A stretch of DNA of 36,722 nucleotides from a virus: IMG/VR virus record IMGVR_UViG_3300017971_000156, positions 1 to 36,722 of that record; one strand, 5' to 3'. Below the pieces are notes generated by a model. The model was not told where the DNA came from. It saw only the letters and a list, made by a program, of their open reading frames with translations, and searched no databases. Below are positions 9,123-25,413 of the stretch, in pieces (within the stretch, counting starts at the first letter, position 1; each line of letters opens with the position of its first letter). The translations under genes were made by a program, and so were the position numbers.

Positions 9123-9797
9123 TTAACCACCCCGCTTTACAGCTGCAATCTTTGCCTCAAACTCCGAATCAGAAAGGTTTTTGATGTAGTCGACAGCAGA
9201 CAAAGATGAACCACCCGTAGGTGCATTCGATACGCTACCTGGCTTTTGCGCGTTCTCAACCATACGTTGAGCTTCAGCCGCCTTTTTAGCGTTTCCCTGT
9301 GCCTGCTCTCTGCCTAATTCATATGCCAACAGATGCGGGTCTGAGCTAGAAGCGATTGCCTGCGCTAAAGCAGGGTTCGTTTCTGCTTTTTTCAATGTGT
9401 TCTGTACTACGTTATCGTAGTCAGAAAACTGAGAACGATAACCCATAAGTTTCAGCTGTTTATTCACAGAATCCATCTGTTGATTAAACGTCTGTTCCTT
9501 TTGAGAGAGCACTCTCTGAAAATCACCGACAGTTGCGACATCTTGCTCATCCATGCCCTCAAACGGGTTAGCAGGTTGCGCGGCCTGCTGCGCTGGTGGC
9601 GGGGATTGCAACATCTCTTGCTGTCGTTGCAAAAGTAAGTTCTCGCGCTGCTTTAGTTGCTCGATCTCTTGCTTTTGCTGAGCCATCGTTTCATTAGCTG
9701 CCTTCCAGTTGACGTCTTGCTGGTTTGGCTGCTCTTGAGTTGCTGGCTCTTGAGACTCGGCGACAGTCTCAGCGTGTACGCCCTGTTCTTCGGTCAT
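9123..9797 (-). CDS. Capsid scaffolding protein
   Basis: The product has 224 residues, Gln/Glu/Ala-rich and strongly helical, with a coiled coil at about 30-65 (QKQEIEQLKQRENLLLQRQQ), a Pro/Ala linker (SPPPAQQAAQPANPF), further helices and a basic C-terminus (KIAAVKRGG). Internal scaffolds that bind coat subunits commonly end in such a basic helix. It is immediately upstream of the major capsid gene. AAGGACACAT precedes the ATG. It is the first gene after a 500-bp non-coding region, so its promoter probably lies there. No protease motif is seen. Confidence 0.8.
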   Translation of the reverse strand: MTEEQGVHAETVAESQEPATQEQPNQQDVNWKAANETMAQQKQEIEQLKQRENLLLQRQQEMLQSPPPAQQAAQPANPFEGMDEQDVATVGDFQRVLSQKEQTFNQQMDSVNKQLKLMGYRSQFSDYDNVVQNTLKKAETNPALAQAIASSSDPHLLAYELGREQAQGNAKKAAEAQRMVENAQKPGSVSNAPTGGSSLSAVDYIKNLSDSEFEAKIAAVKRGG

Positions 9798-10035: not shown

Positions 10036-10137
10036 GGACTGTCGGCACGGTGGGAACGTGCGCTTAAGACAATAATGCGCTTGCGACTCGTGGGACTCCA
10101 CTAGCAGGCAAAGTGAGTTCGAATCTCACACAGTCCA
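10036..10137 (+). tRNA. tRNA-like element, anticodon not assignable
   Basis: The ends match a tRNA: a 7-bp acceptor stem (GGACTGT with ACAGTCC), discriminator A, and a perfect T arm (GTGAG-TTCGAAT-CTCAC) directly before the acceptor 3' strand. A D-like arm is present (GCAC-GGTGGGAAC-GTGC, with GG in the loop). The middle 51 bases (10062-10112) are too long for a normal anticodon arm plus variable loop and give no clean 5-bp stem with a 7-base loop. They contain a GTGG-GACT-CCAC hairpin inside a weaker CTTGC/GCAGG stem. Positions 8-9 are C and G, where T8 is nearly universal. It may be a long-variable-arm tRNA, a decayed tRNA, or a tRNA mimic. Confidence 0.5.
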
Positions 10138-16429: not shown

Positions 16430-18694
16430 CTAAACTCCTACTGCGTATTTTTCCCACATGCGTTCAGCCTCAGCCTCACTCATAGAATCCGTTGAGATGC
16501 AACCTAGCCCTATAGCCAAATACCGGAACGCATCGCATGTGTGCGACGCCCAATTGTGTAATGGCTTTGACTTCCAGCAACCGTGCTTATCATCCCACTC
16601 TCTCTTATACGATTCTAGCGCCTGTATGCCAAGTTCGCATTTTACTTCGTCAAAATAGCAACGATGTAAAATGTTTCTCAAGGCGTCAATTCCCTCAGAG
16701 ATCAATAACTTAGGGGCTACAGTAAATTTTATGCCATGGTTTCTAGCAACCTCAGCGCGTGTATGTCCTGTAGTATATTCATGCACTTCTACGTCGTGGG
16801 GCGCGATATGTTTACCATAAACGTAGTCTTTTTCCTTCAGATACTTCAGGTAAAACGTGAGTGGCTCGCCGCTATTCTCGTAAGTTTCAAGTACCCGGAT
16901 CTCTTGCCCGTACGTCTGAAAAAATACGATAGCGGTAGAGTCATCAAACCCAAGATCCCAAGCAGTATGGACAGGCAAGTTAGGATCGTAAAGGACGCGA
17001 GTAAGCCGACCGTCTCGGCGAGCAGCGCTAATTTGCTTTGCATAGTATTCCCCTTGATGTGCGACTTCGAAAGCTTCTTCAGGCGTCGACGGGTATTCCC
17101 GCTTCATATCGTCGCCTTGAGTGAGCAGCTTTTTCGCATACCACGCTTTTTGGCCTTCAGTTAAGTTGATTCCTTTTTCGGACAAAAGTGTGAAATATTC
17201 GGACAGCTCATCGTTAATTCGGACAGAGTAATCAAGCGTGTACTCCGGAGACTCGAACCAAGGGAAAAAGTGCAGTTTGAAGTCGAGAGGTGTTAATTCT
17301 CTGCCTTCGTCGATTAACTTCTTGGCCTCTTGGCACATCTCATAGAACGAACCTGATCTCCCCTCTGCCGTAGACTCGACAAAGACATATTGCCCGGCTT
17401 GGACGGTGTTTAAAGATCCAGTTACTATCTCACGGGCTTTATCCGGGAATCTTGCGGCGATCTTTCCGAATTCTGAGATATGAAGATACTGAATGGTTGC
17501 CGATCGCAACGACGTACCGACTCGAATAGATGAGTCGTTGGAGAAGGTAAGCTCTCTAACCGTGTTTGTATTGGCGGTAACTTCATTTCTGATGAACGGG
17601 GGCAGCTGGTCATAAGCATATTTGATGCGTTTGAATAAATGTGTTGCATCCTCTCTAGTATGCGCTATCACACCTGCGGATTTATTTGCATTGAAGAGGC
17701 AACGATCGAGAAAAAGCATTGCGATATAGGTGGAATTATGTGACACAAGCCCTTCAGCTATGAACGTCTTTGTTGATGTTTGTAGGTCAACAACCTCCCC
17801 GACTCCAAGTTCCTCAATCTCCGTGATTACGGAGTACGGACCAGATGCAACCTGAGGCATTTCTTTGCCATCCCACCAATTCCGCTCCATGAAACGAGAC
17901 GGTCTAGTAACACCAACTAAACGCATCATTTCATCAAGACGCGCTACAACAAGCTTGTTTACTGGTTTTGTCCCGTATTTTGACTTACGCTCTGCTTTGT
18001 CTATTTCTATGCGGTATGTGTACTTGTTTTGTCTTAGGTACGCTTCCATCCTATTGAATACAGAGCCAGAAACTTGTGAAACCGAAACAGAACCACCAAG
18101 GCGCTTTGCATTAGCGAGAGAACCTTCACCATCCAGAATTCCACCGAACCAACCATCTTCATAGCCGCCCTTTTCCCACGGGGTGTCTAATATGCGCCTA
18201 ATTTTTGTTCCAACACAAAGCTTGCCCTTCCCGTGCTGATCAATGCTCCTCCACCTATAATCAGTTGCCGATTTGCGCGACAACCAACGATGGCCACCGG
18301 TGCAGATTACCGACGATCCATCATCAAAATGAAGTTTGTATCTCTTGGCTCTTCTGAAAGCCACAGCCTGAACTGTGGACTCTCGCATCCTTCTTCGTTT
18401 TCCACGAGTTAACGTGTGCTCGTCGACACCAACAAGTTTATCTCCGGGTTTAATATCCGCTATCCTGGACCATGTAAGATCAGCCCTCAATACCTTGGTA
18501 TCAGGATCGAGACACATCCCAAGCTGCCTAGCCTTCAGGATCACATTCATGTACCACTGGGAATGGTATAGCATTTCTTGAGCGTGATTCAGCTTGAACT
18601 TGACGCGCCTCCCCTCTTTGTCAAGAATCCAATAGAGGTTGTTAATCCGCCAGTAGGGATCGTTGAGCTTCGCGATGACCTCGTCGTCGTTCAC
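16430..18694 (-). CDS. Terminase large subunit interrupted by an intein
   Basis: The precursor has 754 residues; splicing would leave 494. The host protein shows the ATPase P-loop as 'KARQLGM' plus 'STYIAM', split by the intein between residues 60 and 321, a Walker-B-like 'YLHISEFG', and RuvC-like nuclease features: 'HTAWDLGFDDSTAIVFF' and a late Asp in 'HTCDAFRYLAIG'. It cuts and translocates DNA into the head through the portal encoded next. The start is GTG at 18694, in a GTGA overlap with small terminase, with GGGAG eight bases upstream. Because the intein splits the P-loop, packaging ATPase activity should require protein splicing. Confidence 0.9.
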   Translation of the reverse strand: MNDDEVIAKLNDPYWRINNLYWILDKEGRRVKFKLNHAQEMLYHSQWYMNVILKARQLGMCLDPDTKVLRADLTWSRIADIKPGDKLVGVDEHTLTRGKRRRMRESTVQAVAFRRAKRYKLHFDDGSSVICTGGHRWLSRKSATDYRWRSIDQHGKGKLCVGTKIRRILDTPWEKGGYEDGWFGGILDGEGSLANAKRLGGSVSVSQVSGSVFNRMEAYLRQNKYTYRIEIDKAERKSKYGTKPVNKLVVARLDEMMRLVGVTRPSRFMERNWWDGKEMPQVASGPYSVITEIEELGVGEVVDLQTSTKTFIAEGLVSHNSTYIAMLFLDRCLFNANKSAGVIAHTREDATHLFKRIKYAYDQLPPFIRNEVTANTNTVRELTFSNDSSIRVGTSLRSATIQYLHISEFGKIAARFPDKAREIVTGSLNTVQAGQYVFVESTAEGRSGSFYEMCQEAKKLIDEGRELTPLDFKLHFFPWFESPEYTLDYSVRINDELSEYFTLLSEKGINLTEGQKAWYAKKLLTQGDDMKREYPSTPEEAFEVAHQGEYYAKQISAARRDGRLTRVLYDPNLPVHTAWDLGFDDSTAIVFFQTYGQEIRVLETYENSGEPLTFYLKYLKEKDYVYGKHIAPHDVEVHEYTTGHTRAEVARNHGIKFTVAPKLLISEGIDALRNILHRCYFDEVKCELGIQALESYKREWDDKHGCWKSKPLHNWASHTCDAFRYLAIGLGCISTDSMSEAEAERMWEKYAVGV
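17735..18514 (-). mobile_element. Intein with LAGLIDADG-type endonuclease remnant
   Basis: Residues 61-320 of the terminase (260 residues). It starts with Cys in 'CLDPDTKVLRADLTW' (block A), has 'ICTGGHRWLS' (block B, with the conserved His), and ends 'FIAEGLVSHN' followed by Ser321 (blocks F/G). All splicing residues are therefore present: Cys1, His, terminal His-Asn and +1 Ser. Between them 'WFGGILDGEGSL' resembles one LAGLIDADG motif. At 260 residues, with one clear motif, the endonuclease is small and may be degenerate. Confidence 0.92.
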
Positions 18695-19170: not shown

Positions 19171-19200
19171 TTGTGTTACGCTGTGTTACACTGTCTTACA
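19171..19200. promoter_or_regulatory. Three tandem 10-bp repeats, TGTGTTAC type
   Basis: TGTGTTAC at 19172 and 19182 and TGTCTTAC at 19192 repeat with a 10-base period, one helical turn. They lie between the leftward terminase gene and the rightward gene at 19267, where an operator controlling both directions would be expected. Confidence 0.6.
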
Positions 19201-19218
19201 GATTGCAGAGTCACTTGT

Positions 19219-20574: not shown

Positions 20575-21403
20575 GAACCGTCCTGTGAGTTTCCGCATAT
20601 TTTAGCATGAGATCGAACTCGCGGTCAAAGTTCTTGTCGCTGTAGCTGAGTGCGGGGCAGATGGAGATATCTTCATAGATCACGCAGGTTTCGTTTACGA
20701 TCATCGGCTCTATCGCCTCATTCTGCGCTCGCTCCCTGCGAGCTTGGATTTCCTTTGCCTTGGAATCCGAGATTTCTTGCTCTCTGCTGGGTGTGTAGAT
20801 CCAGTTTCCCTTGATGGCAGAGCGAAGCAGTCGCCCGTGGTCATCCTCTGCATATCGCCAGACAGCTTCGACGGCCTGCTCGACTACAGGCTCGGGATGT
20901 TCCTCACAGAGTTTTTTCTTAAGCCCGTAAGGAACCTTAACCTTGTCAAGACAACTAAAAATAACAATCGGCGAAGCCGGATTATTGTTTTCTTTCTCAG
21001 TCTTCTCTTCTTTCTTAGTAGGACTGCGTTTCACCGGAACCGGCGTTTCACCGGTACCGCCAAAACCGGTGTTTCGGTAACTTTTTTTGAATTCCTCTTC
21101 TGAAATGGGTTCCTCAAAAAAGTGCCACTCTAGACCCTCGAACTTTCCAGTTCCTTCTTCATGCTTTTTTCGTCGGTGTAGGTATCCACTTTTCTCGAGC
21201 TCTTTGATTCCAGAGTCGAAAGACTTCTCCCCGTCTGAGGCGTGCTGAATCATTTCTTTTTTATAAAACTTCCAATCATCTGGCCGAGAAAAAGCGTATG
21301 TCAATAAACCTTTCGCCTTCCAACTGATGGAGCTGTCCATCACAATCCGCTTATTAAATCTTACGAAAGGATCTTTAGTTCTGTGTGCGTAACATAATGT
21401 CAT
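20558..21403 (-). CDS. Replication initiation protein, winged-helix type
   Basis: The product has 281 residues. Residues about 12-75 ('FVRFNKRIVMDSSISWKAKGLLTYAFSRPDDWKFYKKEMIQHASDGEKSF', then 'KELEKSGYLHRR') match the winged-helix domain of phage replisome organisers and DnaD/RepA-like replication proteins, where it binds the origin. A charged linker (PTKKEEKTEKENNN) joins it to a C-terminal helical part that probably contacts the helicase. A strong GGAGGAG precedes the ATG. It lies just left of the gap with the DnaB box and left of the helicase gene, a standard initiator-helicase arrangement. Confidence 0.75.
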   Translation of the reverse strand: MTLCYAHRTKDPFVRFNKRIVMDSSISWKAKGLLTYAFSRPDDWKFYKKEMIQHASDGEKSFDSGIKELEKSGYLHRRKKHEEGTGKFEGLEWHFFEEPISEEEFKKSYRNTGFGGTGETPVPVKRSPTKKEEKTEKENNNPASPIVIFSCLDKVKVPYGLKKKLCEEHPEPVVEQAVEAVWRYAEDDHGRLLRSAIKGNWIYTPSREQEISDSKAKEIQARRERAQNEAIEPMIVNETCVIYEDISICPALSYSDKNFDREFDLMLKYAETHRTVHATRA

Positions 21404-21436
21404 TCACTCCTCCAAGAGCGGAAGAGAGCAGCGACC

Positions 21437-21465
21437 TTGAGAAAAATGTCAGCAGGTGTTACACT
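21437..21465 (+). promoter_or_regulatory. Extended -10 promoter for a rightward transcript
   Basis: TTGAGA (21437) and TACACT (21460) with exactly 17 bases between and TG at 21457-21458, giving an extended -10. The same -10 with TG occurs at the 25230 gene's promoter. A GTGTTAC site overlaps the -10, so it may be repressible. Confidence 0.6.
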
Positions 21466-21550
21466 TAGTGACATAACTCGAGAGGTGCAACTCTCTGGTT
21501 ATAAGCATACAACCCCAGGTGACTGGGGTCGTATGCAATCTAGATTTCAA

Positions 21551-21559
21551 TTATCCACA
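21551..21559 (+). promoter_or_regulatory. DnaA box
   Basis: TTATCCACA is the exact consensus high-affinity DnaA box. It lies in the 226-bp gap next to the replication initiator and helicase genes, so an origin is likely here. Only one perfect box was seen. Confidence 0.6.
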
Positions 21560-21597
21560 TTGACAGATTAACCGATTTTTCGGCTAGCGATGTTTTT

Positions 21598-21631
21598 AGC
21601 CCCGTAAGGCTTTCCTACGGGGCTTTTTTTT
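21598..21631 (+). terminator. Rho-independent terminator
   Basis: AGCCCCGTA and TACGGGGCT form a perfect 9-bp stem with a 9-base loop, followed by eight Ts on the plus strand. It would end the rightward small RNA before it runs antisense into the gene at 21630-22139. The minus strand has no T-run. Confidence 0.85.
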
Positions 21632-22139: not shown

Positions 22140-22152
22140 AATATGTCCTGTG

Positions 22153-24745: not shown

Positions 24746-24756
24746 GATTGCGCCGT

Positions 24757-24783
24757 AAAAAAAGCCCGCCGTGGGGAGCGGGC
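24757..24783 (-). terminator. Rho-independent terminator
   Basis: On the minus strand GCCCGC and GCGGGC form a GC stem with flanking C-G extension around TCCCCACG, followed by seven Ts. It ends transcripts of the gene at 24799-24990 and lies directly before the zinc-ribbon gene. Confidence 0.8.
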
Positions 24784-24798
24784 CCACATTGGAAAGTG

Positions 24799-24990
24799 TT
24801 AAAACTTGCCGTCGCCGCTGCGTGGCTTGTTGCCCAAATGAGGCATTTCACGCGCTGCATTGTTGCGCATTGGCGCATCATATGCTGCAGAACGCTCCAA
24901 ATTTGGAGATGCTGCTGCTGCTTCGTGATTCTTAGCGCCCATTTCCATCGCAACAGGTTGTGCGTTATTTTTGACGAGATTCTTAGCCAT
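24799..24990 (-). CDS. Small early protein, Ala/Asn-rich
   Basis: The product has 63 residues, basic, Asn/Ala/Pro-rich and probably disordered (MAKNLVKNNAQPVAMEMGAKNHEAAAASPNL... ending GNKPRSGDGKF). AGGAG lies seven bases before the ATG. A perfect 14-bp palindrome lies in its 5' leader and a strong terminator follows it, so it is separately controlled. Early phage proteins of this type often bind host enzymes, but nothing specific is seen. Confidence 0.55.
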   Translation of the reverse strand: MAKNLVKNNAQPVAMEMGAKNHEAAAASPNLERSAAYDAPMRNNAAREMPHLGNKPRSGDGKF

Positions 24991-25002
24991 TTTATAACTC
25001 CT

Positions 25003-25016
25003 ATGCTTGCAAGCAT
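25003..25016. promoter_or_regulatory. Perfect 14-bp palindrome, candidate operator
   Basis: ATGCTTGCAAGCAT is its own reverse complement. It sits between the ribbon-helix-helix gene (25045-25230) and the next gene (24990), right before the ribosome site. It is a natural binding site for a dimeric regulator. Confidence 0.55.
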
Positions 25017-25044
25017 GTTGACAAATCCCTTTTTACTCGCTTCC

Positions 25045-25230
25045 TTAATTAGGGGTCAACCCGCCTTTCTCCCGCCATTCATTATAACAACGCTTGATCG
25101 CGTGTCTTACGATGTCTGTACGTGTGATATTTGAGACGCTTTTCTTTTGCGCACTGCCGCGCATTTCGTCGATCATTGCTAGTTCTTCTTTAGATGCCCG
25201 CATAGTCAAATGGGCCCACTTCTTATCCAT
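25045..25230 (-). CDS. Ribbon-helix-helix DNA-binding protein
   Basis: The product has 61 residues. 'WAHLTMRASKEELAMIDEMRGSAQKKSVSNITRTDIVRHAIKRCYNEW' fits the CopG/Arc/MetJ fold: a DNA-contacting strand (AHLTMRAS) followed by two helices, the second starting at ITRTDIVRHAI. Such proteins are dimeric repressors. It is the first gene of the leftward early block, with its own extended -10 promoter at 25261-25289 and repeated sites near it. It is the best candidate for the regulator of the divergent early region. No target is proven. Confidence 0.75.
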   Translation of the reverse strand: MDKKWAHLTMRASKEELAMIDEMRGSAQKKSVSNITRTDIVRHAIKRCYNEWREKGGLTPN

Positions 25231-25260
25231 TGCTCTCTCCTGATTGCCTGATTTTATTCC

Positions 25261-25289
25261 AGTGTAGCACGTTTTATGTTTGCTGTAAA
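25261..25289 (-). promoter_or_regulatory. Extended -10 promoter of the regulator gene
   Basis: On the minus strand TTTACA and TACACT are separated by 17 bases, with TGC directly before the -10. The -10 equals that of the small-RNA promoter at 21460. Transcription would start near 25254. Confidence 0.6.
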
Positions 25290-25298
25290 TGGTGATAC

Positions 25299-25314
25299 TG
25301 TGTTACTGTATTAC
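25299..25314 (+). promoter_or_regulatory. Paired TGTGTTAC/TGTATTAC sites
   Basis: Two adjacent 8-mers, TGTGTTAC and TGTATTAC, lie just upstream of the -35 of the regulator's promoter and before the rightward recombination operon. Confidence 0.45.
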
Positions 25315-25413
25315 TCAAAGAAGCCCGAATGCTACAGGCAGCTAGGCGGAAACATTAACAAGTTCAATTTGCTAATGGAGTAGCGGTACACCGCCGTGGT
25401 GGCTAAAAACTAA

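Follow-up and report, generated by a model that had tools for sequence, protein, structure and literature searches.

Why should a tightly packed block of leftward replication genes be interrupted by a gap whose transcription signals point the other way? The question is raised by IMGVR_UViG_3300017971_000156, one virus record of IMG/VR (36,722 bp), which was analysed over its full length and is called the window here. The source phage carries genes for a P22-like portal, a DnaB helicase and an O-like initiator, together with the recombination genes ERF, YqaJ and RusA; it appears to have no close sequenced relatives. Its leftward replication genes follow one another in this order:

23571-22153 (minus strand): DnaB-type replicative helicase
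22139-21630 (minus strand): upstream gene, 169 aa, whose stop codon meets the 3' end of the RNA predicted below
21403-20558 (minus strand): replication initiator, 281 aa, lambda-O/phage-Rep-like, with HTH in its N-terminal half; the presumed target

Between the last two lies a gap of 226 bp (21404-21629), free of long ORFs and flanked by leftward genes on both sides, which is exceptional in that the rest of the block is tightly packed. The N-terminal half of the initiator is 41-45% identical to initiators of staphylococcal and lactobacillus phages; the 169-aa upstream gene matches no known family. The gap and its edges contain the following elements:

21437-21465 (plus strand): sigma-70-type promoter, with -35 TTGAGA, a 17-bp spacer and extended -10 TGTTACACT
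21446-21474 (no strand): 29-bp dyad ATGTCAgcagGTGTTACACttagTGACAT, centred on the promoter -10; candidate operator
21472-21631 (plus strand): predicted small RNA of ~160 nt, deduced from promoter and terminator
21473-21502 (plus strand): hairpin 1, dG -12.0 on the plus strand and -9.4 on the minus strand
21505-21536 (plus strand): hairpin 2, a 6+7 bp stem with a GTGA tetraloop, dG -22.1
21557-21592 (plus strand): third hairpin, weak
21598-21631 (plus strand): intrinsic terminator, a 9-bp stem followed by T8, dG -17.3

An earlier note on this DNA had described an extended -10 promoter, two hairpins and a strong plus-strand terminator in a gene-free gap, and all of these are confirmed and can be ranked across the window. 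The promoter, whose -10 reads TG-T-TACACT, comes first on the plus strand and third across both strands of the 36.7 kb when scored with a sigma-70-like weight matrix, which is approximate and built from general knowledge. The terminator (AGCCCCGTA-AGGCTTTCC-TACGGGGCT, then T8) is missed by a standard terminator scan because its loop has 9 nt; in another scan it is the window's top compact hairpin with a full T run, and a laxer one adds a single longer, imperfect hairpin of lower dG at 9345. Across 20 shuffles of the whole window, a hit with dG <= -16 turns up at a mean rate of 0.05 per shuffle. The predicted RNA as a whole has a folding energy of -63.5 kcal/mol, where dinucleotide shuffles give -35.2 +/- 3.8 (z = -7.4; 0 of 200 shuffles as stable). 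Hairpin 2 and the terminator hairpin are slightly more stable on the minus strand and hairpin 1 on the plus strand, so folding alone does not decide the strand, and the polarity of the RNA rests on the promoter and on a T run found on one side only. Promoter, fold and terminator agree in spacing and polarity, and the best reading of the signals at 21437-21631 is a predicted rightward small RNA.

The -10 element is a usual site for operators, and the dyad centred on it is the best odd-centred dyad of the window; together with hairpins 1 and 2, it makes up three of the window's top five 29-bp dyads, all within 60 bp. On the minus strand the same bases can pair into a weak hairpin with T5 after it (dG -6.2), which might serve as an attenuator in the leader of the initiator mRNA. 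A search for the dyad pattern in IMG/VR returned three places, all unrelated. We rejected an operator common to this promoter and either the promoter at 25266 (leftward) or that at 19187 (plus strand): all three have the core GTGYTACAC, which overlaps the extended -10 consensus, and only this core matches, the flanks being different. Both of these other sites have surroundings of their own. The extended -10 promoter at 25266 belongs to a leftward stretch (24755-25315) with a 61-aa protein that looks by eye like a ribbon-helix-helix repressor, a 63-aa gene and a strong terminator (24784-24755), which probably forms an early regulatory unit. The plus-strand promoter-like site coincides with tandem 10-bp repeats at 19171-19201 (+; TGTGTTACGC TGTGTTACAC TGTCTTACAG); TGTGTTAC recurs at 22149 and 25299, near gene borders.

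Two further elements connect the locus to replication:

21026-21075 (no strand): iterons within the initiator gene, 17-bp tandem repeat GCGTTTCACCGG[A/T]ACCG
21551-21559 (plus strand): perfect DnaA box TTATCCACA, by sequence

The iterons comprise two tandem copies and a partial third, border on AT-richer DNA (20940-21020) and occupy the position within the initiator gene at which the origin of phage phiJB is annotated; they thus likely mark the phage origin, inside the initiator gene as in lambda. Perfect DnaA boxes number three in the window, against 1.15 expected.

By its sequence, the predicted RNA is a new family: blastn of the gap against 50,697 phage records gave no relevant match, Rfam no match at gathering score, and a 15-mer of hairpin 2 searched in IMG/VR eight hits, all unrelated. 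Single-protein scans found no relative of the initiator, helicase or upstream gene in IMG/VR, nor of the initiator in GTDB genomes; portal scans did find relatives, but on contigs without the replication module, and the portal scan of GTDB found none. A scan based on aligned initiators yielded 80 loci, which were ranked by similarity to the window's initiator. The nearest two, L039 (48% identical over 202 aa) and L040 (49% over about 200 aa), each carry an antisense terminator in the gap that precedes the initiator gene (dG -19.8 and -16.8, respectively), ending ~175 nt upstream of the initiator start, compared to 222 nt in the window; the L039 phage also has the portal (34-43%) and YqaJ (34%) in the same gene order. 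DNA similarity between the window RNA and these two gaps was not found. The iteron-like cores CGGTAAA / GGTGAA are readable in both at the same codons and with the same 17-bp period, as read from the sequence and not listed by the repeat finder; a DnaA box was not found in L039 or L040.

Antisense promoter, hairpin and terminator also lie upstream of the initiator in L081 and L065, and an antisense terminator lies there in the Microbacterium phages MO526 and Kozie. The top antisense promoter-like site in the gap ranks 5 of 11152 in L039, 4 of 8438 in L081 and 1 of 6348 in L065; that of L040 is weak (rank 81). In lambda, used as a positive control, the same method ranks pO second and recovers the oop terminator. 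Counting terminators of dG <= -12, and only initiators with distinct upstream regions, an antisense terminator precedes 8 of 29 initiators, compared with 7 of 144 controls (Fisher p 7e-4), the latter being other ORFs of the same loci with mechanical gene calls; leaving out the window and lambda, it precedes 6 of 27 (p = 0.007). The initiator set, taken from loci ranked by similarity to the window's initiator, is skewed to staphylococcal phages, which are mostly negative; phages that have this type of initiator, staphylococcal, lactococcal or other, for the most part show no clear antisense terminator. The recurrence of antisense units before O-type initiators has modest statistical support. 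Among the relatives the position of the predicted RNA is conserved and its sequence is not; like the signals in the window and their statistics, this is directly observed.

What, then, would such an RNA do? The reading that we favour, and consider probable without holding it secure, is a cis-antisense unit in the manner of lambda pO/oop, which restrains the initiator and transcription of the origin. Host RNA polymerase would start at ~21472 and make a structured RNA of ~160 nt ending at 21631. Its transcription would run counter to the leftward operon that leads from helicase to initiator, and the RNA would be the complement of the initiator mRNA's 5' leader. An action in cis is favoured because the upstream gene is touched only at its stop codon, which leaves the initiator leader as the target. 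Firing of the antisense promoter would reduce leftward transcription, which supplies the initiator and also passes through the origin within the initiator gene. Transcription of the RNA, the direction of its effect and the molecular step are what we infer here; candidate steps are collision of convergent polymerases, cutting of the 160-bp duplex by RNase III or altered folding of the leader. When the leader was folded with the RNA-covered bases blocked, no clear switch appeared and the outcome hinged on three bases at the 5' end of the RNA. Direct block of translation is unlikely, since the predicted RNA starts ~55 nt upstream of the initiator ribosome site. A repressor bound to the -10 dyad might switch the brake on and off, and the DnaA box might couple it to host replication.

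The counter-transcribed RNAs of plasmids (CopA, pT181 RNAI, pIP501 RNAIII, pMV158 RNAII) are small, structured and antisense to the initiator leader; the window RNA differs in coming from a phage and in not overlapping the initiator ribosome site. The U-turn (YUNR) loop, common but not universal in these plasmid RNAs, is absent from its loops GUGCAA and GUGA (plus strand) and UUGCAC and UCAC (minus strand). The layout recalls that of lambda, where pO is convergent with pR and lowers the pR transcription that reaches the origin, with DnaA sites downstream of pO and oop antisense to cII (PMC3985674). In both phages the space between an O-type initiator and the gene upstream of it contains an antisense promoter and terminator; the RNA, which in the window is predicted, heads away from the initiator and terminates near the 3' end of that upstream gene; iterons lie within the initiator gene; and one or more DnaA sites lie downstream of the antisense promoter (in the window, the predicted box TTATCCACA). 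Both also have an operator-like site at the promoter, which in lambda pO is a LexA site (PMC5869508) and in the window is the dyad, not a LexA box. The differences are these: the window RNA has no sequence similarity to oop, is 160 nt long and not about 80, and has an extra strong hairpin; the main target of oop is the 3' part of cII, whereas the window RNA overlaps its upstream gene, which is not recognizable as cII, by ~2 nt in the stop codon only; and the initiator is of the staphylococcal/DnaD-like phage type, unlike that of lambda. Outside phages, Bacillus subtilis ArrA is a chromosomal RNA antisense to the 5' leader of dnaA, likewise an initiator of replication (PMC12112137); the likeness is one of position, with no sequence relation to the window RNA evident. 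The earlier proposal that the RNA may regulate the initiator accordingly gains from its position and from the lambda pO/oop precedent, the effect itself being a matter of prediction.

Other readings give the same signals a different function. The RNA might be an Hfq-type phage sRNA that adjoins the initiator by chance and pairs in trans with host or phage mRNAs elsewhere. The U-rich stretch ahead of the terminator, the long T run and weak plus-strand Rfam scores for ncS54 (E 0.0018), anti-hemB, Spot 42 and PrrF speak for this; yet all the scores lie far under gathering (the best reaches 24.8 bits, where the gathering threshold is 90) and probably reflect mostly the terminator, and relatives keep an antisense terminator beside the initiator despite full sequence change, which fits a role in cis. 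We consider an action in trans unlikely, and it is quite unlikely that the region functions as DNA, with origin or operator palindromes and a DnaA site, the RNA having little or no role: the clustering of dyads and the perfect DnaA box speak for it, but a one-sided T8 terminator and a well-spaced extended -10 promoter are signals of transcription, and the iterons lie elsewhere, within the initiator gene.

The transcript might instead encode a protein. The earlier argument that a plus-strand terminator can be explained only by a plus-strand RNA is reasonable, but it does not say whether the RNA stands alone or the terminator closes a small mRNA, and an ORF of 41 aa at 21446-21571 (+; MSAGVTLSDITREVQLSGYKHTTPGDWGRMQSRFQLSTLTD) stops 26 bp ahead of the terminator stem. 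Its codon score of 0.124 per codon falls inside the range of real genes (0.167 +/- 0.079) and is reached by just 1.5% of stop-free off-frame stretches, a figure that is not strong given that about six frames were inspected; its start codon precedes the predicted start of transcription, and it comes with neither a good ribosome site, nor a better upstream promoter, nor a homologue, which leaves a small-protein mRNA a decidedly poor prospect. Very improbable in our estimation is that the functional element is the leader of the leftward initiator message, in which the hairpins and the weak ATGTCA..TGACAT-T5 would attenuate transcription, with or without an antisense RNA, on the model of pT181/pIP501-type plasmids. 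The leader does fold strongly on the minus strand and the hairpin forms within it (P about 0.9-1.0), and L065 has, besides its antisense terminator, a sense-strand terminator (221-264, +; dG -11.6) directly upstream of the initiator start, resembling plasmids under antisense attenuation control; against this, the window's hairpin is weak (-6.2), the same bases form the promoter dyad, and neither L039 nor L040 was found to have a sense terminator of this kind. That the RNA primes replication, as the earlier note had also suggested, we hardly credit at all: it is near replication genes, but its 5' end is ~400 bp from the iterons, transcription heads away from them to stop ~550 bp off, and in the case of lambda oop a primer role has been abandoned (PMC3985674).

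Returning to the cis-antisense brake, it may be, although we would not call it likely, that such brakes arose repeatedly before O-type initiators in unrelated phages, with position, promoter and terminator kept and sequence not; lambda oop would then be one instance of a general layer of phage replication control that has mostly gone unannotated. Most work on lambda pO/oop has treated it as a lambdoid feature, and what it does in replication remains under debate. That uncultured phages with an initiator of another subfamily share this layout, their sequences being unrelated, suggests that an antisense promoter before the initiator is a recurrent way to tune origin firing. The cultured Microbacterium phages MO526 and Kozie, which have the antisense terminator at this place, allow direct testing.

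Elsewhere in the window, a 500-bp gene-free gap holds a tRNA-like cloverleaf at 10036-10137 (+; fold z -3.4), with a 7-bp acceptor GGACTGT/ACAGTCC, a T arm GTGAGTTCGAATCTCAC and a long variable arm; ARAGORN and Rfam both reject it as a tRNA. The large terminase subunit (16430-18694, minus strand) has an apparent intein at about residues 60-320, with weak family scores. The window's best promoter-like site, TTGACC-18-TGC-TAAAAT at 20599-20628 (minus strand), sits where the initiator gene ends and points toward the packaging and structural genes, possibly as a late promoter.
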